This document shows, piece after piece, positions 37,697 through 51,704 of a stretch of DNA of 64,000 nt. Made by a program: the position numbers and the translations under genes. Location: NCBI RefSeq assembly GCF_017068455.1, contig NZ_CP070608.1, positions 124,001 to 188,000 on the forward strand. The letters are read 5' to 3'. The notes beneath the pieces were generated by a model. That model worked only from the letters and a program-made list of their open reading frames with translations. It had not been told where the DNA came from and did no database searches. Each line of letters opens with the position of its first letter. Positions within the stretch are counted from its first letter, which is position 1. Source of the stretch: Fulvivirga lutea (GTDB lineage Bacteria; Bacteroidota; Bacteroidia; Cytophagales; Cyclobacteriaceae).

Positions 37697-40015
37697 ATGG
37701 GGAAAAACTTTAAAAATCTTACACTACTTCAACAGACTTACCTCCTCTTTGGTGGATTTGCTCTTTTAGCAATTATCAACTATGTGGTAATTAAAGATGC
37801 CCATAATGATTACAGATCTTATGAAGTAAAATTTCAAGAACTACAGAATTTTAAAAATCAAACAAAAAATTATAAAGAATTATCCTTTAAAGCTGTTGAA
37901 GACACATCAAAATCAGAAGACCTCAAGGAAAGCATTGATTACATCGAATCAACTTTAAGAGTATTCAAAAAGGGTGGTGAGCTACCTTTTAAAAAACAAA
38001 CAATTTCAGCTGGTTCAGAAAATTTAAAAGCGGTAATAGAAAAGCTTGAAGATAAGTGGACTACCATTAAGAAAGCCCAAAGCAATATTCTATTCGAGCC
38101 TCAGAAAATTGACACAACGGTTCAGCAGTCTGTTATGATTCAGGTTAATGATTCAACTACGGCAAATGAAATACAAAACAAAACAATCTCCATTGAAAAT
38201 AGGGTATTTCGGGAGTCAGCCAATGTTCTAAAATTGGAGTTGCAGCAGTTCCATAAGCTTCTATCAGAATTAGCTACCGTTTTAACAGAGGATCAAAAGA
38301 AATCTAGTGACTGGTTACACCTAATATTGGCGTTCTTTCTTGCTTTTAATCTAGTAGCTATTATTGTTGTGCTGCTGTTAATTAAAAGAAATCTATTCGT
38401 TCCTCTCAATAGCTTAGGGAAGCTCATATCAAACGAAGAGTTCAACAAAAAATCAGAGTATGATCAACCCAATGAGTTAGGGGTTATTTCTAGAAGCATC
38501 AATCATCTGGTCGATATGCTGAATAATTCTACTGATTTTGTTAGAAAAATTGGTGAAGGCAAAATAAATGAGTCCATCACTGGGGTTAAAGAATCTGAAG
38601 TGCGGAAAGGAAGTCTTCAGGCTGCGCTATTAAATATGCGCGATCAGATGAAGAAAATGGACGAAGAGGAAGCGGAAAGAAACTGGACAACACAAGGTCT
38701 TGCCAAATTTGTGGACATACTGAGAGCCAGTGACAACGTTCAGGAGCTAAGTGATGAAATAATATCCAGTCTGGTAGAATATACTAACTCCAATCAGGGA
38801 GGTATTTACATTATTAATGAAGAAGATGAGAATGATAAATTCCTTGAACTCATTTCGCTCTATGCTTTTGATACGAAGAAATATGATACAAGAAAGTATC
38901 GAATGGGCGAAGGTTTGGTAGGACAAACTTTCATGGAAAAGAAAACCATTTACTTGCTTGAAGTACCTGAAAGTTATATTCACATTGGCTCTGGTCTTGG
39001 CGATGCCAACCCTACTTCCATCTTACTAGTACCTTTAAAAATTGAAAATGATATTTATGGCGTTATCGAGTTGGCATCTTTTCATGAGTATAAAGAGTAT
39101 CAGATTCAATTTGTTGAAAAATTAGGTGAAAGTATTGCTTCTACCATTGCGGGCGTAAAAGCAAACCAAAAAACAAAGCAACTACTCGAAGAATCGCAAC
39201 AACTAACTGAGCAGATGCAGGCTCAGGAAGAAGAAATGCGCCAAAACATGGAAGAGCTTACAGCCACACAAGAAGAAATGGGGCGTAAAGAGCAAGCCGT
39301 TAACGCCCAAATTGATGCCATCAATAGGTCTTTAGGCACATGTGAGTACTCTGCCGATGGTGCTATTATTAATGCAAACAGAGTATTTACTGATGCTTTG
39401 GGTCTTGATCAATCTAAAATTTCTGATAATAACTTCTACAGCTTGCATGGTGGCATCAATCTTTTAGATGAGCTAACACAAGGCAAAAGCTGGTCTGGCT
39501 GGCTTGAAAAAAATCATTCTTCTGGCAACACAGTTGAATTGAAATCTTATTTCAACCCTGTTCAAGGGGAAGATGGCGAGTTGTTAAAGATTATTGAAAT
39601 TGTTACCCAATTTGAGCGGGATCAGAAACCTGCTACTAAAGCAGAAACAAAGAGAGAACTTGAAGATGTTGAAGAGGAAATGCGTCAGCAAATGGAAGAG
39701 TTAGAAATTACCCAGGAACAGCTGAACGCTAAACTTTCTACATCAGCCAATATAATCAATGCTTTGTCGGAAGAAATGAATTATGTGGTTTTTAATGAGT
39801 TAGGTGACATTCAGGAAACGAGCCAAGCTGCTAGAGTTAGTGTAGGGGATAAAAACAACATAGCAGATATTCTGGATAGTGATGTTAAGAGCTTAACCTC
39901 TGCTGATGGTAAGCTCAAGTTAAAATTGAAAGAAAAAAAGATAGAAATAGATGCAACGGTGAGAAAGATTACCGATAGCAAAGGTGGAAATAAGTTTTTG
40001 ATTATCTGGCACTAG
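37697..40015 (+). CDS. Membrane HAMP-GAF-PAS signalling protein without output domain
   Basis: 772 residues. Membrane helices at about 13-30 and 202-226 flank a helical extracytoplasmic domain. HAMP follows (about 227-282), then a linker ERNWTTQGLAKFVDILRASD, a GAF domain (about 330-485; GEGLVGQ, SGLGDANPTSILLVPL), a coiled coil rich in Gln/Glu pairs (LTEQMQAQEEEMRQNMEEL), a PAS-like domain (about 545-640), a second Gln/Glu coiled coil and a C-terminal PAS-like end. There is no histidine kinase, cyclase or MCP hairpin. It may be a receptor whose coiled coils are the substrate of the CheR/CheB encoded next; that is inferred. Confidence 0.82.
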   Translation: MGKNFKNLTLLQQTYLLFGGFALLAIINYVVIKDAHNDYRSYEVKFQELQNFKNQTKNYKELSFKAVEDTSKSEDLKESIDYIESTLRVFKKGGELPFKKQTISAGSENLKAVIEKLEDKWTTIKKAQSNILFEPQKIDTTVQQSVMIQVNDSTTANEIQNKTISIENRVFRESANVLKLELQQFHKLLSELATVLTEDQKKSSDWLHLILAFFLAFNLVAIIVVLLLIKRNLFVPLNSLGKLISNEEFNKKSEYDQPNELGVISRSINHLVDMLNNSTDFVRKIGEGKINESITGVKESEVRKGSLQAALLNMRDQMKKMDEEEAERNWTTQGLAKFVDILRASDNVQELSDEIISSLVEYTNSNQGGIYIINEEDENDKFLELISLYAFDTKKYDTRKYRMGEGLVGQTFMEKKTIYLLEVPESYIHIGSGLGDANPTSILLVPLKIENDIYGVIELASFHEYKEYQIQFVEKLGESIASTIAGVKANQKTKQLLEESQQLTEQMQAQEEEMRQNMEELTATQEEMGRKEQAVNAQIDAINRSLGTCEYSADGAIINANRVFTDALGLDQSKISDNNFYSLHGGINLLDELTQGKSWSGWLEKNHSSGNTVELKSYFNPVQGEDGELLKIIEIVTQFERDQKPATKAETKRELEDVEEEMRQQMEELEITQEQLNAKLSTSANIINALSEEMNYVVFNELGDIQETSQAARVSVGDKNNIADILDSDVKSLTSADGKLKLKLKEKKIEIDATVRKITDSKGGNKFLIIWH

Positions 40016-40104
40016 CAATCAGGTAATTAAATAGATAATTGGAAAAATTATACGTGAATTTTATTAATTTACAAATTACAAAATACCTCTAAGCCAATCG
40101 ATTA

Positions 40105-40923
40105 ATGAAGGATATAGATATTGCAGACTTAAAAAAGATCACAGAGGTGGTAAAGACAAAGTACAACTATGACTTTACCAATTACGCAATGTCTTCTTTT
40201 AAAAGAAGAATTTCGAGAATACTCGAAATGAATAATTTCACTATTGAAGTGCTCATGCGCAAATTGAATGAGCCTGCGTTCCTTGATGACTTTTTAAACG
40301 AAATTACAGTAAATGTAACTGAGATGTTCAGGGATCCTTCATTTTGGAGGGTATTACGCGATGACATTATCCCCGGCATCCTTTTAAATCATCAGAAAAT
40401 CAGAATATGGCATGCCGGTTGTTCATCAGGTGAGGAAGTATTTTCGATGGCCATCATGCTGAAAGAGTTGGACTTATTGGATAGTGCCAGCCTTATAGCT
40501 ACTGATCTGGACACCAATATTTTAGAGAGGGCCAAATCAGGTGAGTACAACCTGAAAAACATGGAACTCAATGAGAAAAACTACATACGCTATCAAGGAA
40601 TAGGTTCTTTAAAAGACTATTATGAAGAAAAGAACGGTAAGGCTATCATGGATAAAAGCCTTGTTGAAAATGTATCGTTCAGAAAACATGATTTAGTAAA
40701 TGGCGAAATATTCAACAAGTTCGATTTGATACTATGTAGAAATGTGATGATTTACTTCAACCAGACATTGCAAAATGAGGTACTGAAGAAATTTCACGAA
40801 AGTTTATTTAAATATGGATACTTGGCCATCGGTTCCAAGGAATCTCTCATATGGTGTGATATAGCGAATAAGTTTATAATCGTTAATAACGAAGAGAAAA
40901 TTTATAAAAAGATTAAGGACTGA
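40105..40923 (+). CDS. cheR: CheR-type protein-glutamate methyltransferase
   Basis: 272 residues, complete. N-terminal helical domain (FTNYAMSSFKRRISRILEMN) and SAM-binding domain: IRIWHAGCSSGEEVFSMAIM, IATDLDTNILERAKSGEYN, FRKHDLVN and LILCRNVMIYFNQTLQNEV. It transfers methyl groups to receptor glutamates. No TPR tail. Normally it partners chemoreceptors, but none is nearby; the flanking HAMP-GAF coiled-coil proteins are the plausible targets. It is 15 nt upstream of cheB. Confidence 0.93.
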   Translation: MKDIDIADLKKITEVVKTKYNYDFTNYAMSSFKRRISRILEMNNFTIEVLMRKLNEPAFLDDFLNEITVNVTEMFRDPSFWRVLRDDIIPGILLNHQKIRIWHAGCSSGEEVFSMAIMLKELDLLDSASLIATDLDTNILERAKSGEYNLKNMELNEKNYIRYQGIGSLKDYYEEKNGKAIMDKSLVENVSFRKHDLVNGEIFNKFDLILCRNVMIYFNQTLQNEVLKKFHESLFKYGYLAIGSKESLIWCDIANKFIIVNNEEKIYKKIKD

Positions 40924-40938
40924 GAGACTCTATAACCG

Positions 40939-41532
40939 GTGACTGATTTTAAATTAGATAATCGATATAAGGCCATAGTTATAGGTGGCTCGGCAGGAAG
41001 TTTTCAGGGAATAGTCAAAATTCTATCTGCACTACCCTCGAACTTTCCGCTACCAATAATTATGTGCTTGCATAGATTGAAACATGTGCGAAATGGTTTC
41101 GTAGAGGCTCTTTCTATTAAGAGCACTATAGAAATTGTTGAACCATACGATAAAGAACATATTAAAAAAGGAAAAGTCTATTTGGCACCATCTAATTACC
41201 ATATGTCTACAGAGCTTGGTCATTACTTCAGTTTATCTACAGAAGAAATGATCAATAACTCTCGTCCGGCTATTGATATAACGTTAGGTACAACCGCCTA
41301 TGTGTTTAGAGATAAACTAATAGGTATATTATTATCTGGAGCTAACAGAGATGGTGGTATGGGCATGAAATATATTAAAGACCGTGGCGGGATGACGATT
41401 GTACAAGAACCGAGCGAATGTATGATTGATACCATGCCAAAAGCAGCAATGAATCTCACAACCATTGATCATGTGCTTAAAATTGATGAGATTGTAGAGT
41501 TTTTTAACCAATTACATAAACAGTATAAGTAA
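40939..41532 (+). CDS. cheB: CheB-type methylesterase lacking the receiver domain
   Basis: 197 residues with a GTG start. Only the esterase domain is present: Ser 18 (GGSAGS), His 45 (MCLHR) and Asp 138 (SGANRDGGMGMKYI) form the triad, with RPAIDITLGTTAYVF between. Canonical CheB has an N-terminal receiver that blocks the site until phosphorylated; here control must come from elsewhere. It reverses CheR methylation or deamidates Gln. TAAATG joins it to the next gene with no gap. Confidence 0.92.
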   Translation: MTDFKLDNRYKAIVIGGSAGSFQGIVKILSALPSNFPLPIIMCLHRLKHVRNGFVEALSIKSTIEIVEPYDKEHIKKGKVYLAPSNYHMSTELGHYFSLSTEEMINNSRPAIDITLGTTAYVFRDKLIGILLSGANRDGGMGMKYIKDRGGMTIVQEPSECMIDTMPKAAMNLTTIDHVLKIDEIVEFFNQLHKQYK

Positions 41533-42399
41533 ATGAAATTAGATCAGCGAAAAATAAGCATAGCTCTTGTCTTAGTTTATATCATCTGCGGTATCTACGC
41601 TACTTATACGTTGTTTACTTTCCAAAACGATTTAATCTATGACGTTCAGGTGCTGGAGATTTCAGATTTAGATAATGCTGCTCCTGTTCTCAATGGCCTA
41701 TATTTTTCAATGGGAATATGCATTTTGGCCGGTCTTGGTGTCCTATTATATATGTTTAACAATAAGGGCATGGAGATCATTTACGTAGAAAAGAAAGAAG
41801 AAAAGTCAAAGAAGGACGAGGATAAAGAGAAAAAGGACAGCAAGAATAAGACATTTAGCGTATCATCCATAAAAGAGGCATTAAGCGAAAAATCGAAATC
41901 TGAAGAGAAAATTTTAGGCGAAGGCTTAACAGAAATTTGCAAAGCACTTGAAGCAGGAGTAGGTGCCTTCTATATGTTAAAGAAAGATGGCGACAAAAAG
42001 GTTCTTCAAATGAATGCTACTTACGCTATGAGCCTAGGTGAAAGCCAGCGGCCAACCTTTGAAATGGGCGAAGGTCTGGTAGGCCAGGTAGCATCAGAAA
42101 AGAAAGCTATAATCATTGACGATATACCAGATGATTATATAAAAATCATTTCAGGCTTAGGGAGTGCATCCCCTACTCACGTTTTAGTAGCTCCAGTTAT
42201 TTACGGAGAAGAATTATGTGGCGTGGTAGAGATAGCATCATTCACTTCATTTTCAGAGAGCGATCGAAAAGCTGTGGAAGCTGCATTCGAGTTGGTTACT
42301 GATAAATTGTATGGTAAAAGTGAAAGTGCCAAACCAACTGAAAAAGCAGAGCCTAAGAAAGAAGGTAAGAAAACGAATAAAGGAAATAAAGAAGCATAA
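41533..42399 (+). CDS. Membrane-anchored GAF domain protein
   Basis: 288 residues: two membrane helices (about 9-29 and 55-76) with a short outside loop, a Lys/Glu-rich linker, then one GAF domain (about 120-268) containing EMGEGLVGQ, DDIPDDYIKIISGLGSASPT and CGVVEIASF. A charged Lys-rich tail ends it. The GAF is clearly related to those in the proteins at 37697 and 42414. It has no output domain, so it probably works as a subunit or sensor for one of its neighbours. Confidence 0.78.
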   Translation: MKLDQRKISIALVLVYIICGIYATYTLFTFQNDLIYDVQVLEISDLDNAAPVLNGLYFSMGICILAGLGVLLYMFNNKGMEIIYVEKKEEKSKKDEDKEKKDSKNKTFSVSSIKEALSEKSKSEEKILGEGLTEICKALEAGVGAFYMLKKDGDKKVLQMNATYAMSLGESQRPTFEMGEGLVGQVASEKKAIIIDDIPDDYIKIISGLGSASPTHVLVAPVIYGEELCGVVEIASFTSFSESDRKAVEAAFELVTDKLYGKSESAKPTEKAEPKKEGKKTNKGNKEA

Positions 42400-42413
42400 A
42401 ACATATCAATTAT

Positions 42414-45400
42414 ATGTTTAAACAGATATCCATAAGTACAAAGATCACCGGCCTGGTAATAGGTATAGTGCTTGTAACCCTATTGGCCATAAGCTACTTA
42501 TCATTTAGGTTGAGCCGTGGTGCAATACAAGATAGATACAGCGAAAGCTTAAGAGTAGTTGCTGAAGCACAGTCCGGCAAAATTGAAACAACATTTGAGT
42601 CCTTAATAAGTAATCTAAAACTTTTACAGGAGTCTAAAACCATTAAGGAGGGTGCGGTTTCTTCGGGTAGTGGCAGCTCTGCTGGTGGTATGGATATGGG
42701 TTTTGGAGATGACCCATTTGCTATGGATATGGGTGGCGGTGATGATCCTTTCGCCATGGATTCTGGCGGTGACGATCCTTTCGCTATGGATATGGGCGGT
42801 GGAGATGACCCATTTGCTATGGATATGGGTGGGGATGATGCATCTGCCGAGCCAGCTGACCCTAAGTATGACGTCAAAGGATTTTTGAATGAAGTAAAAT
42901 CCTCTTATGGATATAATGATGTATTCATTACAGAATCTACCGGCAAAATATTGTTTAGCACCAGCTCTAAAATGTCTGCCGGTTCAAATTTTATTGATCC
43001 TGATGGCACAACCTTAGCTAATGCAGTGCAAGGAGTTCATTTTAGTAATGTTACCAAAAAAGAGAATGGTGCATACGTCATTTATGCAGGTGCTCCGGTT
43101 AATCACCCAAGTGGAGAAACTTCAATCATTTTGATTGAATACCCAATGACTAAGATTTATGATATTCTGAGTGATTCTACTGGTTTAGGTAAAAGGGGTG
43201 AAGTTATACTGGCAAAACTAGACTCTTCTTCCGGCAGAATTAATTACGTAAACAAGCCAAGGCTAGATCCGGATGGTGCATTTAAACTACTAACGTTGGG
43301 TGACGCTAACTCAAAAGCGATCCAAAAGGCGGTTACTGGTGCAAAAGGATCTGGTGCTAACGTTGATTATAGAGGTAAAGAAAATTTGGCATACTATACT
43401 TACCTACCAAAAGCTAAGCTAGGCTTGGTGGCAAAAATTGATACAGAAGAAATTTATAGCGAGGGTAACGCACTGTTTAATAAGTTCATGTTTGCAGGAT
43501 TCTTCATCTTGATTATTTCTGGAGTGATATCACTGATTTTTTCAAAGTATTTAACCAACCCATTATTATCACTGAAAAAGACATTGGAGCTTGTTGGCAA
43601 TGGAACACTTCCTGAACAGGTTGAGCGTAAAACATCAGATGAAATAGGTCTAATGGCAAATAGTGTTAACCATTTGGTTAAAACACTTAAGAATACCGCC
43701 AATTTTGCTCAGCAAATAGGTGAAGGTAACTTCTCTGCCGATTTCAAACTCGTAAATGATGATGACGCACTAGGCCTGGCATTGGTGAACATGCGCGATA
43801 ACCTAGTAGAAAGTGAGAAACGTGATAAAGAACGCAACTGGATTGTAACTGGTGTTGCAGAAATTGGTGAAATACTTAGAGCGCATGATAACCTTGAGCC
43901 ACTTGGCGATGCCGTTGTAAAATATATCATCGGAAAAATTGGGGCTGTTCAAGGTGCCTTTTATGTGGTAAATGAAGATGATCCGGATGACATTTTCATA
44001 GAGATGAAAGCAAGTTTTGCTTACAATCGTAAAAAACACTTAAATGCAAAATTTAAATTTGCTGAAGGTCTGGTAGGACAAGCAGCCGCTGAAAAAGATA
44101 CCGTACTAAGAACAGAAATCCCTCATGATTATGTAACGATCACATCAGGTATTCTGGGTGATAAAAGACCAACCAGCATTCTCATAGTGCCTTTAATAAC
44201 TGAGGAAAAGGTATATGGTGTTGTTGAGTTTGCCGGTTTTGAAAAGTTTGATAGTGGTAAGGTAAAATTTGTTGAAGAGCTAAGTCTAATTCTTGCTCGT
44301 ACAGTGTTCAACATCAAAGTAAATGAAAGAACACGCAAGCTTTTGGAAGAGTCTCAGGCAATGAGTTCTGAGTTACAAGAGAAGCAAGAGATTCTTCGTC
44401 AGAATGCTGAGGAAATGCAGGCTACTCAGGAAGAGCTTCAAAAATCTAACTCCAAGTTAGAAGAGCAAATTGAAGAGGTAAATAGAACGCAAAACAGAAT
44501 GCAGCTTCTATTGGAGAATGCCTCCGAGGTAATCACTATTTATGAAGAAGATCTATCCGTTAGATATATCAGTCCATCAGTAGAGCCAATTCTTGGCTAC
44601 ACGCAAAAAGAAATGATTGGTGTAAGCGATGCTGATAAGGTAAATAAAGAGCATGTGGCTGAGTTCAAAGGAATGTTCAAAAGCCTTCTTGAAAATCCCG
44701 ATGAACAGATCACTATTCAGTATGAGTATTTAACTAAAGATGGCAACTACATCTGGATTGAATCTACTGGCACCAACTTTATGTCGAACCCTGCCATCCA
44801 TGGTTTAATAGTTAACTCGCGTGACATTACCGAAAGACGAAGAGCAGAGCAAGAACAGAGAATGCGTAGTAAAATGCAGGCTCTTTCGGAAAACTCTCTC
44901 GATCTGATTACAAGGTTGGAAGATGATGCCATTTCTTACATCAACCCTGTTATTGAAGAATATACGGGCAAAGGACCTTCAGACTTCTTAAATCAGAAAA
45001 TTAAGGAGGCCGATTTAGCTCAAAATGTACTAGATAAGTGGCTGGAAATTATTGAAGAAGTCAATAGTACCAATAAAAAGGTAGCAACTGAAATGGACTT
45101 CCCTTCCGAAATGGGTGACAGAGTAATGCAGGTTAATGCCATTCCGGAGTTTGACGATAATGAAAAGCTTGAATCTGTATTAGTAGTTTCTCATGACATC
45201 ACAGAGAGAAAGTTAATTGAGCTGGAAATCCAGAACAAAAACAAGAAGATCGCAGATAGTATCAACTATGCTAAGAGAATTCAGAATGCTATTCTGCCTA
45301 ACAACAATGTGATTAATAAGGTACTACCTGATTCATTCATTCTTTACAAGCCTAAAGATGTGGTGAGCGGTGACTTCCCATGGTACGTTAAAATAGGTGA

Positions 45401-46001
45401 TGATATTTACATGGCTGCTGTGGATTGTACAGGTCATGGTGTTCCTGGAGCCCTTTTATCATTAATTGGCTATTTCTTGCTTAATGATATCGTTAGAAGT
45501 AGAAAAATATCTGACCCGGGTATAATCTTAGATCAGCTGGATGAAGGCGTTACTACAACACTTCGTCAGGACCAGGATGATTCTAAAACGAAAGATGGAA
45601 TGGATATCGCACTTTGTAAAATAAATACAGCTACAAGAAAGGTTGAATATGCAGGTGCTCACAGGCCGTTATATGTGGTGAAGAAAGGTGAGATGGAAGA
45701 AATTAAAGGTAATAAGTTCGCTATTGGTGGAGGTATCTATAAAAACCAAACCAACTTCACTAATCATAAAGTTGAACTTAATGAAGGTGATTCATTCTAC
45801 TTTTGCTCAGACGGGTTTCCAGATCAGTTTGGTGGACCAGATAACAGAAAGTATGGCCCTAAGCGCTTAAGAGAGAAAATCATGGAAGTTCACAACATGT
45901 CAATGAAAGACGCTTATGTGAAGTTTGATGACCATTGGACAAATTGGATGGGAGAAGAAAAGCAAACTGATGATGTATTGTTAATTGGTATAAAATTGTA
46001 G
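42414..46001 (+). CDS. Cache-HAMP-GAF-PAS-PAS-SpoIIE phosphatase (SiaA-like)
   Basis: 1195 residues. TM1 at about 11-31, a Cache-like extracytoplasmic domain with a DDPFAMD tandem repeat (residues 93-142), TM2 near 362-380, HAMP to about 440, GAF (about 485-640; FAEGLVGQ, SGILGDKRPTSILIVPL), coiled coil to 700, two PAS domains (about 700-820 and 825-945), and a C-terminal PP2C/SpoIIE phosphatase (about 960-1195). Metal-binding aspartates are visible in VVSGDFPWY, DCTGHGVPGAL, FCSDGFPDQFGG and QTDDVLL. By analogy to SiaA it would dephosphorylate the SiaC-like protein encoded 0.7 kb downstream. Confidence 0.88.
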   Translation: MFKQISISTKITGLVIGIVLVTLLAISYLSFRLSRGAIQDRYSESLRVVAEAQSGKIETTFESLISNLKLLQESKTIKEGAVSSGSGSSAGGMDMGFGDDPFAMDMGGGDDPFAMDSGGDDPFAMDMGGGDDPFAMDMGGDDASAEPADPKYDVKGFLNEVKSSYGYNDVFITESTGKILFSTSSKMSAGSNFIDPDGTTLANAVQGVHFSNVTKKENGAYVIYAGAPVNHPSGETSIILIEYPMTKIYDILSDSTGLGKRGEVILAKLDSSSGRINYVNKPRLDPDGAFKLLTLGDANSKAIQKAVTGAKGSGANVDYRGKENLAYYTYLPKAKLGLVAKIDTEEIYSEGNALFNKFMFAGFFILIISGVISLIFSKYLTNPLLSLKKTLELVGNGTLPEQVERKTSDEIGLMANSVNHLVKTLKNTANFAQQIGEGNFSADFKLVNDDDALGLALVNMRDNLVESEKRDKERNWIVTGVAEIGEILRAHDNLEPLGDAVVKYIIGKIGAVQGAFYVVNEDDPDDIFIEMKASFAYNRKKHLNAKFKFAEGLVGQAAAEKDTVLRTEIPHDYVTITSGILGDKRPTSILIVPLITEEKVYGVVEFAGFEKFDSGKVKFVEELSLILARTVFNIKVNERTRKLLEESQAMSSELQEKQEILRQNAEEMQATQEELQKSNSKLEEQIEEVNRTQNRMQLLLENASEVITIYEEDLSVRYISPSVEPILGYTQKEMIGVSDADKVNKEHVAEFKGMFKSLLENPDEQITIQYEYLTKDGNYIWIESTGTNFMSNPAIHGLIVNSRDITERRRAEQEQRMRSKMQALSENSLDLITRLEDDAISYINPVIEEYTGKGPSDFLNQKIKEADLAQNVLDKWLEIIEEVNSTNKKVATEMDFPSEMGDRVMQVNAIPEFDDNEKLESVLVVSHDITERKLIELEIQNKNKKIADSINYAKRIQNAILPNNNVINKVLPDSFILYKPKDVVSGDFPWYVKIGDDIYMAAVDCTGHGVPGALLSLIGYFLLNDIVRSRKISDPGIILDQLDEGVTTTLRQDQDDSKTKDGMDIALCKINTATRKVEYAGAHRPLYVVKKGEMEEIKGNKFAIGGGIYKNQTNFTNHKVELNEGDSFYFCSDGFPDQFGGPDNRKYGPKRLREKIMEVHNMSMKDAYVKFDDHWTNWMGEEKQTDDVLLIGIKL
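42708..42839 (+). repeat. In-frame tandem repeat encoding DDPFAMDMGGG units
   Basis: Four consecutive 30-33-nt units encode DDPFAMDMGGG, DDPFAMDSGG, DDPFAMDMGGG and DDPFAMDMGG, followed by DDAS. The DNA copies differ at synonymous positions, so the repeat is not brand new. It lies in the extracytoplasmic sensor part of the phosphatase and is acidic and Met-rich. Confidence 0.9.
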
Positions 46002-46104
46002 ATTTTTAATTAAAAGTCGTATTTTGACAAACTATAATCAAAATCGACTAACAAACTTATAGATAAAGACTTATAAAGAACCTGAATAAAACGCTTTAAG
46101 ACTT

Positions 46105-46635
46105 ATGAAGTATATTTTTGATTTGCACAAAACCATGCTTGAAAACCATCTGATCTTGGTATACGAGGGTGAATTTACCCAGGAAATTACCAAATCAGTA
46201 TTGGCCATGGCGGAACGAAATATGGATTCTTCAGGTGAGGAATCTACTGTCAAAAGGAAAGTATTCAATGTAATGGTTGAGTGCTTACAGAATATTGTAA
46301 AACATGCAGATGATGTTGCTAACAATCATTCAGCTGTATTTATGGTGGGTAAGCAAGAAGACAAATACATTATCATTTCCGGCAACCCAATTATGAATGA
46401 GAACATAGATGGCTTGAAAGGTAAAATTGACCAGATTAATGAGCTGGATAAGGATGGTTTAAAGGAACTTTATAAAAGCATAATCAAGAGTACTGAAATC
46501 TCTGATAAAGGAGGTGCAGGTCTTGGGTTTGTAGATATGGCTAGAAAGTCAGGGAATAAACTAGATTATGATTTTGTTGATATAGGGGATGGCAATTCAT
46601 TTTTCTGTTTACGGTCATCAATAGATAGACTATAG
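46105..46635 (+). CDS. siaB: SiaB-like protein kinase (DUF6272)
   Basis: 176 residues with a GHKL-type ATP-binding fold: N-box Glu 59 and Asn 63 in MVECLQNIVKHADD, and the G-box DKGGAGLGFVDMARKSG. This matches the SiaB family, which phosphorylates SiaC. It lies between the SpoIIE phosphatase and siaC, the order found in the Pseudomonas siaABC cluster. Cytoplasmic, acting in opposition to the phosphatase. Confidence 0.88.
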   Translation: MKYIFDLHKTMLENHLILVYEGEFTQEITKSVLAMAERNMDSSGEESTVKRKVFNVMVECLQNIVKHADDVANNHSAVFMVGKQEDKYIIISGNPIMNENIDGLKGKIDQINELDKDGLKELYKSIIKSTEISDKGGAGLGFVDMARKSGNKLDYDFVDIGDGNSFFCLRSSIDRL

Positions 46636-46676
46636 TTTAATTTTTTGGTAATAACGATTATAAATAAGCATTAATA

Positions 46677-47039
46677 ATGGACATACTAAATTTAGAAGGC
46701 ACTGAAGATACTCCTAAAATTATTTTAGATAAAGGAAACGGTATTTTTGAAATTTCTGGTCGTAGCTTACCGGAAGACTCTGCTGAATTTTATCAGCCTG
46801 TATTAGATTGGATCGAAGAATATTCTAAAGACGCGAATGCAAGCACTGAATTCATGTTCAAATTAGAATATTTCAATACAGCTTCTAGTAAACTAATACT
46901 TGATGTTCTATCTGCATTGGAAGATATCGATGGTATGACTATCATATGGTACTTTCATGAAGATGACGAAGATATGGAAGAAGCAGGTGAGGAGTTTTCT
47001 GAACTTGTTGAAATTCCGTTCGAATTTAAAACATACTAA
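46677..47039 (+). CDS. siaC: SiaC-like regulatory phosphoprotein (DUF1987)
   Basis: 120 residues, the normal family length. The phosphorylatable Thr 68 sits in LEYFNTASSKLILDVL, the same motif and number as described for Pseudomonas SiaC. Opening LNLEGTEDTPKIILDKGNG is typical. In Pseudomonas, unphosphorylated SiaC activates the diguanylate cyclase SiaD. No GGDEF gene is present here, so the target must differ; the ABC transporter 52 nt downstream is the nearest candidate. Confidence 0.88.
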   Translation: MDILNLEGTEDTPKIILDKGNGIFEISGRSLPEDSAEFYQPVLDWIEEYSKDANASTEFMFKLEYFNTASSKLILDVLSALEDIDGMTIIWYFHEDDEDMEEAGEEFSELVEIPFEFKTY

Positions 47040-47091
47040 GTTATACCTAATTTTTTGCCAGTAAATTGCTGCTAACAGCAGACGGTAGCCT

Positions 47092-50000
47092 ATGAGTGAG
47101 GAAATACTTAAAGCACTTACCCAACTTTTTGCCATTATTACCAAACAAGATGGAGGTGTTACTGAGAAAGAAAGGCAGTTTGTAATAAGTTTTTTTCAGC
47201 AGGAGCTAGACCAAGACTCTGTTAAAGAGTATGTTGAGCTTTATGATAAATTCGCTGGCTATAATCAGGATGGCGATGAGGAGAAAGAGGAAGAAGGAAG
47301 TAAGAAAAGAAAATTAACCTCCGTTCGTGACTCCGTTAAAACTTTAGGTCTTTGTAAGAAAATCAACAAAACACTTACCCAAAAACAAAAGGTAGTTGTT
47401 TTAATTAAAATTTTAGAGTTAGTAGGGTCAGATCAAAACTTTACTTCTCAAAGGATGGAAATTATTGACACCATTAGTACGGTGTTCAATATCGTGAAGG
47501 ACGAATACAAGCTTATTGAAAGCTTCGTTATCAAAACAGAATCTTCAGAACTTAATTTTGGTGATATACTTATTGTTGATGGTGAAGGTGAGCATGATCA
47601 CACACCTGAAAATAAGGAAGAACTAGAAGAAAAAGGGATTTACTCTAAACACTTCTACTCAGATATAGATGGCCACATCATATTCTTGAAGGTAAATAGT
47701 GTTGACATGTACTTCACCAAGTACATTGGTAAAGATCAAATAGTGCTTAATGGGTTTATCATGCAGAGAAACAGAGTATATCTGTTTTCTCATGGTAGTA
47801 CTGTTAAAACACCATTAGGCGCAGCTCTTTATTACAGTGATTTAATCGCACTTTTTAATGAGGAGTTAAAAACCACCAAGCTTTCTTTTAATGCCGACAT
47901 CCAGGAATTTAGATTCCCTAATGGTGCTCTTGGTTTGCGTGATGTAGTCATTTCAGAAGGTCCAGGACAGCTCATTGGAATTATGGGTGCCAGTGGTGCA
48001 GGTAAAACCACCTTAATGAATGTTTTGGCTGGCATAGAGCAACCTACATTAGGCTCAGTTAAAATTAATGGGTTCGACATAAACACCCAGAAAGACCGTA
48101 TACACGGTGTTATTGGGTATGTTTCGCAGGATGACCTTCTGATCGAGGAGTTAACTGTTTACGAAAACCTTTATTATAATGCGAAACTATGTTTCGCCAA
48201 CTTGTCTGAAGAAGACTTAAGTAAAAAGGTTCTTGATGTTTTAGAAAGCCTAGGCCTCGATCAACGTAAGGATTTAAAAGTTGGTAGTGTTCTAGATAAA
48301 ACCATAAGTGGTGGACAAAGAAAACGTTTAAATATTGCCCTTGAGTTAATTAGAGAACCTGCAGTAATGTTTGTTGATGAACCTACATCAGGTTTATCAT
48401 CAAGAGACTCAGAAAATGTAATTGACTTATTAAAAGAGCTTTCCTTGAAGGGGAAACTAATATTTGTGGTAATTCACCAGCCTAGTTCTGATATCTATAA
48501 GATGTTCAGCAAAATGTACATCATGGATACTGGCGGCTACCCTGTATTCTATGGTAATCCAGTTGAGGCAGTAACTTATTTTAAGAAAGCTTCTAACCAG
48601 GTTGATTCACAAAGAGGACAGTGCGAAACATGTGGTAACGTTAACCCAGAGCAAATATTTAATATCATTGAGGCTAAGGTGGTTGATGAATATGGGCAGC
48701 TCACAAACAAGAGGAAGGTTAACCCTCAACAATGGCACGAAGGCTTTAAAGAGCATTTTTCAATTGAAAAAGTTGAAGATATCAACGAAGAGCCTGCGCA
48801 TTCACTATTTATACCAAATAGATTAAAGCAGAGCTTAATTTTTACTACACGCGATATGTTGAGTAAGTTAAGCAACAAGCAATATTTGCTGATTAACTTA
48901 CTAGAAGCACCTCTTTTGGCGCTAATATTAGCGTTTATCATTAAGTATAAGAGTAGCCCTTTTGGCAATGATTATCTTTTCCGTTTTAATGATAACATTC
49001 CCGCGTTTATGCTCATGAGTATCATTGTAGCTCTTTTTATGGGGCTAACAGTGAGTGCCGAAGAAATAATTAGAGACAGGAAAATACTTAAAAGAGAGTC
49101 TTTCCTAAATTTAAGTTGGAATAGCTATCTTATATCAAAAATCATTATACTTTTCTTAATGTCCGCAATTCAAACCATGTCGTTTGTGATAATTGGGCAT
49201 TTAATTCTTGAAATCCATGGAATGACATTTGCCTTCTGGTTTGCGTTATTTACCTGTTCATGCTTAGCAAACGTATTAGGCTTAAATATTTCAAGTGCAT
49301 TTAATTCTGCCGTTACCGTGTACGTAATGATTCCGCTTTTACTCATTCCGCAAATGATTCTAAGTGGATTGCTATTTAGCTTTGATAAATTAAATGAAGT
49401 ACTCAGCACCAAGGGTAAAGTTCCTATTGTGGCAGATTTTATGGCTTCTAGATGGGCCTATGAGGCAATGGCCGTTCATCATTTTAAGAATAATGATTAT
49501 GAAGAGCCTTACTACGAATTAGAAAAAACTGAAGCTGAAGCAGATTTTAAGGCAGCATATCTGGTAGAGGAGCTAAAGAAAAAACGTCAATACATTTCAG
49601 AAAATATTGGAACCGATAGCGATTCAATAAAAGCTATCCTGAAAAAGAATTTAAATATAATTAAAGAAAACATTGTTGGTGATCCTTTCCAGGAAGGGTT
49701 AGAGAATGTAAATGTTAACGATCTAACGTTAGAAACTTTTACTCCAGATGTTAGCAAGACTCTCGAAACATATTTTAAGAACTATAAAGACTATTATCAG
49801 GATATATATAATAAAAGTGTTGTTCGGAAAGATCAGATGGTGTATTTCTTTGAGAACAATCCTGAATATGACTATAATCTTAATGAACTAAAGAATGAAT
49901 ATTATAATGAGAGTTTAGCTGATCTTGTTATGAACGTTGCTGAAAAAGATAGGATCATTGAATATAACGGTGAACTGATACAACAAATTAATCCTATTTT

Positions 50001-50211
50001 TAATGAGCCTGATAAACCAAACCACTTTTTTGACTATAGGGCTCACTTTTTTGCTCCTTCGAAATATTTTGCTGGAACATACTTTAGCACATATGTATTT
50101 AACTTGCTTGTCATCTGGTTAATGACGATATTGTTATACATTACCTTATATTTTGAAGCTCTTAGAAAAGGATTAGATAAATTAAGTAAAATAAGATTCT
50201 CTAAGAAGTAG
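47092..50211 (+). CDS. ABCG-type ABC transporter with TerB-like N-terminal domain
   Basis: 1039 residues, a half transporter with the ATPase before the membrane domain. Residues 1-150 are helical and resemble TerB/DjlA (LFAIITKQDGGVTEKERQFV). Residues about 150-270 are beta-rich, perhaps FHA-like. The ATPase has Walker A GASGAGKTT (about 298-306), signature ISGGQRKRLN (about 405), Walker B VMFVDEPTSG and switch VIHQPSS. Six membrane helices begin near 600. A charged insert of about 200 residues (790-995) separates the last helices. Export of a lipid or other amphiphile is typical of the family; substrate unknown. Confidence 0.85.
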   Translation: MSEEILKALTQLFAIITKQDGGVTEKERQFVISFFQQELDQDSVKEYVELYDKFAGYNQDGDEEKEEEGSKKRKLTSVRDSVKTLGLCKKINKTLTQKQKVVVLIKILELVGSDQNFTSQRMEIIDTISTVFNIVKDEYKLIESFVIKTESSELNFGDILIVDGEGEHDHTPENKEELEEKGIYSKHFYSDIDGHIIFLKVNSVDMYFTKYIGKDQIVLNGFIMQRNRVYLFSHGSTVKTPLGAALYYSDLIALFNEELKTTKLSFNADIQEFRFPNGALGLRDVVISEGPGQLIGIMGASGAGKTTLMNVLAGIEQPTLGSVKINGFDINTQKDRIHGVIGYVSQDDLLIEELTVYENLYYNAKLCFANLSEEDLSKKVLDVLESLGLDQRKDLKVGSVLDKTISGGQRKRLNIALELIREPAVMFVDEPTSGLSSRDSENVIDLLKELSLKGKLIFVVIHQPSSDIYKMFSKMYIMDTGGYPVFYGNPVEAVTYFKKASNQVDSQRGQCETCGNVNPEQIFNIIEAKVVDEYGQLTNKRKVNPQQWHEGFKEHFSIEKVEDINEEPAHSLFIPNRLKQSLIFTTRDMLSKLSNKQYLLINLLEAPLLALILAFIIKYKSSPFGNDYLFRFNDNIPAFMLMSIIVALFMGLTVSAEEIIRDRKILKRESFLNLSWNSYLISKIIILFLMSAIQTMSFVIIGHLILEIHGMTFAFWFALFTCSCLANVLGLNISSAFNSAVTVYVMIPLLLIPQMILSGLLFSFDKLNEVLSTKGKVPIVADFMASRWAYEAMAVHHFKNNDYEEPYYELEKTEAEADFKAAYLVEELKKKRQYISENIGTDSDSIKAILKKNLNIIKENIVGDPFQEGLENVNVNDLTLETFTPDVSKTLETYFKNYKDYYQDIYNKSVVRKDQMVYFFENNPEYDYNLNELKNEYYNESLADLVMNVAEKDRIIEYNGELIQQINPIFNEPDKPNHFFDYRAHFFAPSKYFAGTYFSTYVFNLLVIWLMTILLYITLYFEALRKGLDKLSKIRFSKK

Positions 50212-50283: not shown

Positions 50284-50306
50284 TTACCATCATAAATGTT
50301 GTGCAT

Positions 50307-51203
50307 ATGAGGAAATTATCATTGATATTGGCAGTTCTGTTTTTTGCCTGCAACTCAGGTAAAAAACCAGATGAACAGGCATTTTTAGAGAGTTTGGATT
50401 CAACAAAAGTTGAAGGTCCAGCTATTTCTGAAGAGGCCATTAGTAGCATTATTCAACAAATCCCATCACCCTTAGAAATCTCAGTTCTTTTGAAAGAATC
50501 TGGAACTAAGTATGACAAAAGTTTCTTGAATTCTGCAGATAATATATCAAAATACAATAGCAACTACAGAAAGTCTTTAAATCTTGGTATTTACGGTACT
50601 GATTTAGGTTACACTAACATTTATGAGCAAAATCAAGATGGTTTAGATTACATGGCTGCTATTAAAGAGCTAGCTGATGGGTTAAGCATCGGTCAATTTT
50701 TTGACATAGAAACCATCGGAAGATTAGCTACAAATAGCAAGAATCTGGATTCACTATTGTTAATTACTACTCAGAACTTTAATAACATTAACCACTATTT
50801 ACAGGAGCAAAACAGAGCTAATTTAAGTGTGCTTTTGTTAGCTGGTGGTTGGTTAGAAGCTATGCATATCACTTGCCAGGTAGCTAAGAAAAATCCTGAC
50901 AACAAAGAATTAAGAGATACAATTGGTGAGCAAAAGATCATTTTGGAAAACATAGTGCTTCTTTTAAGCTTCTATAAAGACGTTGATCAAAACATGGCAT
51001 CACTTTTGAATGAAATGCAAAAGTTACAGTCGGAATACGAAAAAATTCAGATTGTAAAGACCTACAAAGAATCAACCTTCGAGGTTGTTGATGGTGTGAT
51101 GGTTATAAAAGATAATAGTACAAGTGAAATAAAAATTACTAATGAAAATGTACAGAACATCACGAACATCATTAGTAGTATTAGAAAAAGTGTAATTAGT
51201 TAG
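50307..51203 (+). CDS. Helical lipoprotein of unknown function
   Basis: 298 residues from ATG 50307 (a GTG 6 nt earlier is possible). Lipoprotein signal MRKLSLILAVLFFAC. The mature chain is helical throughout (LNLGIYGTDLGYTNIYEQNQ, LLLAGGWLEAMHITCQVAKK, QKIILENIVLLLSFYKDVDQ), with no enzyme motif. It has its own strong promoter yet follows the ABC transporter closely. It may be a periplasmic partner of the transporter or sensor; this is contextual only. Confidence 0.75.
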   Translation: MRKLSLILAVLFFACNSGKKPDEQAFLESLDSTKVEGPAISEEAISSIIQQIPSPLEISVLLKESGTKYDKSFLNSADNISKYNSNYRKSLNLGIYGTDLGYTNIYEQNQDGLDYMAAIKELADGLSIGQFFDIETIGRLATNSKNLDSLLLITTQNFNNINHYLQEQNRANLSVLLLAGGWLEAMHITCQVAKKNPDNKELRDTIGEQKIILENIVLLLSFYKDVDQNMASLLNEMQKLQSEYEKIQIVKTYKESTFEVVDGVMVIKDNSTSEIKITNENVQNITNIISSIRKSVIS

Positions 51204-51220
51204 TGGAAAATAATCAGAAT

Positions 51221-51652
51221 ATGAAAAAGGTATTTTATACAATAATAACGGCATGTTTATTTTTAATTGCCGGTACAACTGTTAAGGCACAATGCAATGC
51301 TGAGCAATACACAAACGCTTGTATTCCAAAATTAGCTTCTGGTTTTAATTTCCTTAAGAGTTATAAAATCGATGGACAAGGAGGTTCTAAAACAAAAGTT
51401 GAATACTCTTATGTATTTACTAAAGGAACCCAATACATGATTAATGTATGCGCTACTGGAGAATCAACTGACGGAATTATTGTTAGCTTATTTGATAGTA
51501 ACAGAAACCAGGTTGCTAGTAGCAAATTTAACGGCCAGTTTCTGAGTGCAATCGCCTACCCTTGCAATACAACAGGCATTTATTACATACAGTACACGTT
51601 TGATAATTCAACACAATTCTGTGGAGGAAGTGCGTTAGGGTTCAAGCGATAG
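51221..51652 (+). CDS. Small secreted cysteine-containing protein
   Basis: 143 residues from ATG 51221; a GTG at 51203 would place six polar residues before the signal peptide. Signal peptide ends TVKAQ (residue 21). The mature part has five Cys (QCNAEQYTNACIPK, MINVCATG, YPCNTTG, QFCGG) and a beta-sandwich pattern (YSYVFTKGTQYMINVCATGE, GIIVSLFDSNRNQVASS), like small pre-peptidase C-terminal or adhesion domains. No function recognised. A terminator follows at 51678. Confidence 0.75.
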   Translation: MKKVFYTIITACLFLIAGTTVKAQCNAEQYTNACIPKLASGFNFLKSYKIDGQGGSKTKVEYSYVFTKGTQYMINVCATGESTDGIIVSLFDSNRNQVASSKFNGQFLSAIAYPCNTTGIYYIQYTFDNSTQFCGGSALGFKR

Positions 51653-51677: not shown

Positions 51678-51704
51678 AGCAGGTTTCATTCATTGGAACC
51701 TGCT
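51678..51704 (+). terminator. Intrinsic terminator touching the next start codon
   Basis: AGCAGGTTTC, loop, GGAACCTGCT, then A and seven T (51706-51712). The T run ends at the ATG (51713) of the hydrolase gene. Confidence 0.85.

Follow-up and report, generated by a model that had tools for sequence, protein, structure and literature searches.

What does SiaC, the phosphoprotein of a Sia-type partner switch, control in a bacterium whose genome contains no recognizable gene for the diguanylate cyclase on which it is known to act? The question is raised by a run of eight genes in Fulvivirga lutea, at positions 37697-50211 of a 64,000-nucleotide stretch of DNA (contig NZ_CP070608.1, positions 124,001 to 188,000 of the forward strand) that we call the window, and to which coordinates refer unless another source is named. 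Here genes for a SiaA-like phosphatase, a SiaB-family kinase and SiaC are preceded by those for CheR, CheB and a membrane GAF protein, and followed by one for an ABCG-type exporter. Our answer, to which we assign a probability of about 0.5, is that the genes form one operon for a signal-gated, adaptable exporter, in which CheR and CheB would tune the phosphatase, the phosphatase would set the phosphorylation of SiaC, and SiaC would gate the exporter. The genes are probably part of a conserved block of nine or ten in the Bacteroidota that joins an adjustable sensor and a Sia-type protein switch to a probable new output, the membrane exporter.

In Pseudomonas aeruginosa the phosphatase SiaA and the kinase SiaB act on Thr68 of SiaC (PMC7647112). 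The target of SiaC is SiaD, which it binds and activates; once Thr68 carries a phosphate, the binding is blocked. Modulation of neighbouring proteins is, the authors propose, a common role of the DUF1987 family (PMC8457831). SiaD is co-transcribed with SiaA, SiaB and SiaC (PMC7278518). The F. lutea locus resembles SiaABCD in encoding a membrane PP2C phosphatase, a SiaB-family kinase and a SiaC with Thr68. In both, the gene of the presumed target comes after that of SiaC. The two differ in that here an ABCG exporter, in place of a GGDEF cyclase, is encoded by the next gene, that CheR, CheB, the membrane GAF protein and two envelope proteins have been added, and that none of the three Sia-type proteins reaches the cut-off of its SiaA, SiaB or SiaC equivalog model.

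The gene set put forward by the original prediction, on one strand and with small gaps, was confirmed by a check of the open reading frames (ORFs) and by Pfam and NCBIfam profiles; the eight genes all lie on the + strand with gaps of 0-103 bases. The proposed Sia-type switch was likewise borne out, with its families matched and its catalytic residues in place. The phosphatase (42414..46001, 1195 aa) has a dCache-like part followed by HAMP, GAF, coiled coil, PAS, PAS and PP2C/SpoIIE regions. Its C-terminal part matches SpoIIE (PF07228, E = 5e-18) and contains all of the PP2C motifs SGD, DCTGHG and SDG; the dCache match falls below the cut-off (28.7 vs 45 bits), and the SiaA equivalog model NF038263 is matched at 209.6 bits (cut-off 700), best along the PP2C end. 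The kinase (46105..46635, 176 aa) scores 178.4 bits against the NCBIfam model SiaB_fam_kinase NF038262 (cut-off 85) and 83.9 against the SiaB equivalog NF038264 (cut-off 225). In an alignment of 14 sequences its Glu59 never varies and its Asn63 hardly at all, and a search with the SiaB profile found the kinase chain of solved complex 6kko (E = 6.2e-29). SiaC (46677..47039, 120 aa) matches PF09345 (E = 1.5e-39; 134.8 bits, cut-off 24.5) and reaches 86.9 bits against the SiaC equivalog NF038265 (cut-off 150); its profile matches the DUF1987 chain of 6kko (E = 6.2e-27) and also 6kkp and 7e6g. The phosphosite, Thr68 (bases 46878-46880), is Thr in 20 of 21 aligned SiaC sequences and Ser in the remaining one. 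Among the loci fetched, the closest named relative is that of Fulvivirga lutimaris (Cytophagales, Fulvivirgaceae), with a SiaC 96% and an exporter 85% identical. The phosphatase gene also contains a tandem repeat at 42689-42840 (33-base unit, 4.7 copies) that encodes an acidic repeat of GGDDPFAMD type in the sensor part; among 38 long PP2C relatives, a DDPF trace of it is seen in Fulvivirga sp. L146 only.

Might SiaC act on a cyclase encoded elsewhere in the genome? A search for GGDEF gave no match in the whole 4.14 Mb, so that the absence predicted for the locus extends genome-wide; the identical search was positive in 8 of 14 control genomes. A SiaD-type target, the known one for SiaC, is therefore excluded here. 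Among 295 genomes of the class, GGDEF was found in seven (five of them over the family cut-off) and SiaC in 173, which means that the SiaC-SiaD mechanism cannot be general in the class. SiaC was also present in 116 of 194 genomes of the order.

Does the exporter take the place of SiaD? A profile of the exporter's N-terminal part matches 159 of the 295 class genomes, and in counts that ignore relatedness 156 have both SiaC and this TerB-ABCG transporter, 17 SiaC only, three the transporter only and 119 neither; seven of the 17 are assemblies less than 85% complete. The order sample, which overlaps the class sample in genomes of the window's order, gave 110, 6, 2 and 76, respectively. In the window's own family, six of the 16 genomes listed have both, ten have neither and none is discordant. 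To compare neighbourhoods, we chose a single transporter locus from each of 60 genera, the window's own genus not among them. These were good matches picked by hand and not always the best of their genus (74 genera had a match, and 13 with weak or unlisted matches were left out), and some of the loci end at contig ends. SiaC lies one or two genes from the transporter in 26 of the 60, convergently in 22 and co-directionally in four; without seven loci first fetched through SiaC the figure is 19 of 53. The convergent layouts cannot be one transcript, and thus argue for a functional link beyond co-transcription. The suggestion that SiaC has a new output, perhaps the transporter, is in this way supported at the level of sequence by co-occurrence and by neighbourhood in more than one orientation. 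A SiaC tree has a clade of 62 rows in which 27 of the 28 convergent ones are grouped with 35 that have no transporter beside them; the co-directional SiaC are placed elsewhere. The tree has few columns and long branches, and its labels need many changes; we make no claim for a single origin of transporter-linked SiaC.

The exporter (47092..50211, + strand, 1039 aa) has the layout of an ABCG half-transporter, an ATPase followed by a membrane domain (ABC_tran, E = 2.2e-30; ABC2_membrane, E = 5.2e-19). What could SiaC bind? The N-terminal region begins with a TerB domain (residues 8-141, 47113..47514; PF05099, E = 1.6e-5), for which Foldseek returned 2ou3, a tellurite resistance protein, and 2h5n. 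A scan for PF05099 at E up to 5 found it in eight of nine transporter sequences, at best with E = 5.9e-7. An FHA-like region follows at about residues 186-255 (47647..47856), called weakly from an AlphaFold2 model of residues 1-271 (mean predicted local distance difference test score, pLDDT, 76.6). Of the top 15 Foldseek rows for this model, ten are labelled FHA and five CEP170, which we take to be its FHA domain. A sequence profile search of the PDB (E up to 5) gave a single match, to MEK1 in its FHA-domain entries (E = 0.086), and Pfam gave no FHA match in the exporter sequences scanned. FHA domains bind phosphothreonine, canonically through a phosphate-binding Arg and an NGT motif. In 139 aligned transporter sequences there is no conserved Arg where the phosphate-binding one is expected, and no NGT motif. 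By eye, no convincing match was seen to the SiaC-binding residues of SiaD, and a SiaD-like stalk motif was rejected as a candidate. A known exporter with some of these features is Rv1747 of Mycobacterium tuberculosis, presumably of ABCG type and corresponding domain order. Like Rv1747-PknF, the F. lutea locus encodes an ABC exporter with an FHA or FHA-like part beside a gene for Ser/Thr phosphorylation; unlike it, TerB has been added, the FHA-like region is without recognizable phosphothreonine-binding residues, and the SiaB-type kinase would act through SiaC.

How widely is the complete arrangement kept? Gene order across Cytophagales had been set beforehand as a refutation test, and it proved to be conserved there, in Bacteroidales and in other groups. 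We compared the best 80 of 545 loci by similarity to the window's transporter, a set of named loci thus biased to close relatives. The order CheR-CheB-GAF-PP2C-SiaB-SiaC-transporter was present in 43 of these, one extra gene being allowed between CheB and GAF; SiaC adjoins the transporter in 62, and CheR and CheB are found in 45 and 46. By record title, loci with the full order include Fulvivirga, Marivirga, Cesiribacter, Persicobacter and Flexithrix, Bacteroidales (Marinilabiliaceae, Salinivirgaceae and others), and metagenome-assembled genomes (MAGs) labelled Flavobacteriia and Chlorobiota. One MAG of the 80 is labelled Candidatus Planktophila, probably through a binning error. At L054:4473-11035 the order is CheR-CheB-(PF01161 protein)-PP2C-SiaB-SiaC-SiaB-SiaC, with no adjoining transporter of this family, and therefore the Che-Sia and Sia-transporter links can occur separately. 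The first SiaB of L054, without the Asn-box stretch, could be a pseudokinase. In three loci (L133, L135 and L139) the operon is followed closely by a second PP2C gene, convergent with a SiaC-SiaB pair whose SiaB has 366-367 aa. We found no prior description of the arrangement in search listings of open-licence PubMed Central (PMC) papers; other papers may hold one.

The question then arises of what CheR and CheB modify. CheR (40105..40923, 272 aa; PF01739, E = 1.8e-43) has the motif AGCSSGEE, and CheB (40939..41532, 197 aa; PF01339, E = 9.9e-47) the motifs GGSAG and DGGMG. As in canonical chemosensory pathways, the pair would allow reversible adaptation. Unlike in those pathways, Pfam finds no receiver domain (Response_reg) in the operon CheB and no methyl-accepting chemotaxis protein (MCP) signalling domain, CheA or CheW among the operon proteins; moreover, three genomes of the family (G014, G158 and G215) keep the operon with its CheR and CheB and have no match to the MCP signalling domain. 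The predicted absence of CheA, CheW and a chemoreceptor thus stands for the locus and fails for the genome. At about 60.7-71.3 kb of the contig (G000:C1, 60698-71289; L067:4699-15290), some 53-63 kb upstream of the window, there is a chemosensory cluster comprising an MCP with several PAS domains (1157 aa), CheW, CheA, a GAF-PAS protein, CheR and a receiver-bearing CheB; the MCP signalling domain is the only one in the genome. By eye, the cluster also holds a CheY-like protein.

Two operon proteins contain a helix that could be the substrate. The phosphatase has the sequence EEMQATQE at residue 666 (44409..44432), between GAF and PAS and behind the end of the GAF domain at residue 627, and the receptor-like protein encoded by the first gene has EELTATQE at residue 519 (39251..39274). 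Both are putative sites of methylation by CheR and demethylation by CheB. They conform to the pattern EE[MLIV]x[AS][TS][QNE][EQ], which to our reading resembles the EExxA[ST] methylation consensus of chemoreceptors. The pattern occurs in 34 of 79 PP2C, 15 of 18 receptor-like and 1 of 48 GAF membrane proteins, in none of 1586 unlabelled ORFs and in no other class. For SiaB genes whose run also has a PP2C gene upstream of them, the run contains the motif in 41 of 49 cases with CheR and CheB vs 4 of 16 without (Fisher p = 3e-5, in a test that ignores relatedness, counts L054 and L085 twice and includes some runs that end at contig ends). With PP2C proteins alone, a first, stricter form of the motif is found in 29 of 48 with CheR and CheB vs 3 of 26 other SiaB-linked ones, and plain EExxA[ST] in 36 of 48 vs 5 of 26. 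This distribution, together with the retention of CheR and CheB in genomes with no MCP match, supports the reading that the pair acts on the sensor set and not on a chemoreceptor.

The receptor-like protein (37697..40015, 772 aa) has two hydrophobic stretches, a GAF domain and a coiled coil. It had been described as a HAMP-GAF-PAS receptor; Pfam upholds the GAF, and neither HAMP nor PAS reached E = 0.01. It is an optional member of the operon: three family relatives (L039-L041) keep the other genes without it, and Fulvivirga sp. L146 has it, as do several Bacteroidales loci. The membrane GAF protein (41533..42399, 288 aa; GAF_2, E = 1.8e-15) also has two hydrophobic stretches.

A precedent for methylation ahead of a PP2C switch is provided by RsbM, a CheR-type methyltransferase. 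In Bacillus cereus, RsbK has the domain order HAMP, GAF, S-helix, kinase and feeds a PP2C partner switch, and RsbM methylates its helix (PMC4574943). By analogy the EExxAT-like motif of the phosphatase, behind GAF, would occupy the corresponding position. The two loci are alike in that a CheR-type gene lies near a HAMP-GAF sensor feeding a PP2C switch, here with CheB and GAF genes between. In the RsbK-RsbM-RsbY system of sigma-B, the sensor is a hybrid histidine kinase, the PP2C protein carries a receiver, RsbM is not known to have a methylesterase partner and the output is a sigma factor. By contrast, neither a histidine kinase nor a receiver domain is among the Pfam matches of the F. lutea operon proteins; a single protein combines sensor and PP2C, CheR has CheB as its partner, and a transporter is the probable output.

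How well does the model of a SiaC-gated, adaptable exporter stand against its alternatives? A number of points, in both halves of the model, weigh against it. On the side of the exporter, the co-occurrence counts are uncorrected for relatedness, and the FHA rows of the Foldseek search, at probabilities of 0.85-1.00, have weak E values (best 0.045, none at or below 0.001). SiaC lies more than two genes from the transporter in 34 of the 60 genera. In F. lutea itself, which has three SiaC genes and as many transporters of the family, a SiaC gene adjoins a transporter gene only once; the other two SiaC genes lie away from any transporter gene of the family. In many genomes the copies of SiaC (as many as 21) far outnumber those of the transporter, and other partners of SiaC must therefore exist. 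SiaC could thus act on an unlinked target such as an anti-sigma factor or another enzyme, the transporter being merely co-transcribed or co-inherited and handling the product of the same response. We consider this rather unlikely, given that co-occurrence is near-complete in two samples, that ten genomes of the window's family lack both genes, and that neighbours are convergent as well as co-directional, since co-transcription cannot explain the convergent ones. If the exporter is the target, the direction of the switch might nevertheless be reversed, with the FHA-like domain recognizing SiaC phosphorylated on Thr68, so that the kinase and not the phosphatase switches export on. The FHA-like fold call, weak as its E values are, agrees with this, as do the nature of SiaC as a phosphothreonine protein (PMC7647112) and the parallel of Rv1747, which forms an operon with PknF and is modulated positively by it (PMC3908365). 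However, it is the unphosphorylated SiaC that binds SiaD, an interaction that phosphorylation blocks (PMC8457831). We keep the reversed switch as a rival only, and an improbable one, because the phosphothreonine-binding Arg and NGT motif are not recognizable in the aligned transporters.

On the side of the methylation, the motif was first derived from the two window proteins and its pattern later relaxed, which makes the test of it post hoc. It is missing in eight of the 49 cases with CheR and CheB (seven loci), and the PP2C proteins of L054 and L203 do not have even EExxA[ST]. The motif is also seen in the genome's chemoreceptor, at a position outside the MCP signalling domain, and thus may be of a linker type and not a methylation site. 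The motif helices would then be ordinary linkers, and CheR and CheB would modify some other operon protein, for example the membrane GAF protein, whose gene is present in all 44 named loci that have CheR, CheB, PP2C and SiaB. We regard this as unlikely, given that the motif is found in a GAF membrane protein in one case of 48 only and that, among 196 ORFs in stretches of the F. lutea genome chosen around Sia, SpoIIE and Che genes, only four encode it, all of them within the two CheR/CheB clusters. It is also conceivable that the operon CheR and CheB serve the canonical chemoreceptor encoded upstream of the window with CheA and CheW, their position in the operon being incidental. That cluster has its own CheR and receiver-bearing CheB, however, and CheR-CheB is part of the order conserved in the 43 named loci; we rate this explanation as very improbable because both genes are retained in the three genomes with no MCP match.

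The operon probably extends two genes past the exporter, to 51652. Both genes are on the + strand. The first, orf300 (50301..51203, 300 aa), encodes a helical predicted lipoprotein whose Cys17 is invariant in 23 aligned sequences; its model (pLDDT 82) gave no PDB match better than E = 0.93 that might indicate a function. The second, orf150 (51203..51652, 149 aa), encodes a small secreted protein with no Pfam family. We place the end of the unit here because orf300 and orf150 are found in most transporter loci (53 and 48, respectively, of the 60 one-per-genus loci), and because the longest terminator-like stem of the region follows, a hairpin of 11 pairs and then a T run at 51678..51704 on the + strand. 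The hairpin, a consensus match only, is the likely end of the unit; in the region scan terminator-like sites as a class were not enriched over shuffled sequences (9 vs a mean of 8.0), nor were promoter-like sites (49 vs a mean of 55.9).

Elsewhere in the genome, a second SiaB-SiaC pair (L037:9666-12077; G000:C1, about 3.19 Mb) adjoins a gene for a POT-family peptide transporter (PF00854), with no SpoIIE gene in the 20-kb stretch around it. The third SiaC (L038:9681-10079; G000:C1, about 27.7 kb) is divergent, with no SiaB beside it and a phosphosite region VSSSS in place of FNTSS. The two further TerB-ABCG transporter genes (L205:7168-11242 and L206:6793-9882) lie away from SiaC, one of them beside an orf300 lipoprotein gene. 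In other genomes (G335, G386, G413 and G470), 21 SiaC matches in a single genome point to many parallel switches that have other partners.

The adaptable, SiaC-gated exporter that we prefer would operate as follows. The membrane phosphatase, through its dCache-like, HAMP, GAF and PAS regions ahead of PP2C, would sense a cue, assisted by the membrane GAF protein and in some lineages by the receptor-like GAF protein. CheR would add, and CheB remove, methyl groups on glutamates of the EExxAT-like motif in the coiled-coil helix behind GAF, and this reversible methylation would reset the sensitivity of the phosphatase; being receiver-less, CheB is perhaps always active. The PP2C domain would strip phosphate from Thr68 of SiaC and SiaB would restore it. 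SiaC, more likely in its unphosphorylated form by analogy with SiaD, would bind the cytosolic TerB/FHA-like N-terminus of the exporter and set its activity, and the exporter would cooperate at the envelope with the adjoining lipoprotein and secreted protein. More tentatively, and at somewhat less than even odds, we propose that across the Bacteroidota the Sia switch gates membrane export and not cyclic di-GMP, with SiaC docking on the TerB/FHA-like module, and CheR/CheB methylation giving a short-term memory in the style of chemotaxis with no chemoreceptor, CheA or CheW.

The conclusion that emerges is that this is a real and widely conserved gene system, in which a Sia partner switch has a probable new output and an unusual layer of adaptation. 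SiaC occurs in a majority of the genomes of both the class and the order sample, and GGDEF is nearly absent from the class sample, so the SiaC-SiaD mechanism is inapplicable to most of them. By pointing to a definite candidate for the output, the locus opens the role of a very common family of phosphoproteins to testing. If the model is true, a phosphatase rather than a chemoreceptor array would be the object of methylation-based adaptation, and an exporter would be under the control of a partner switch.

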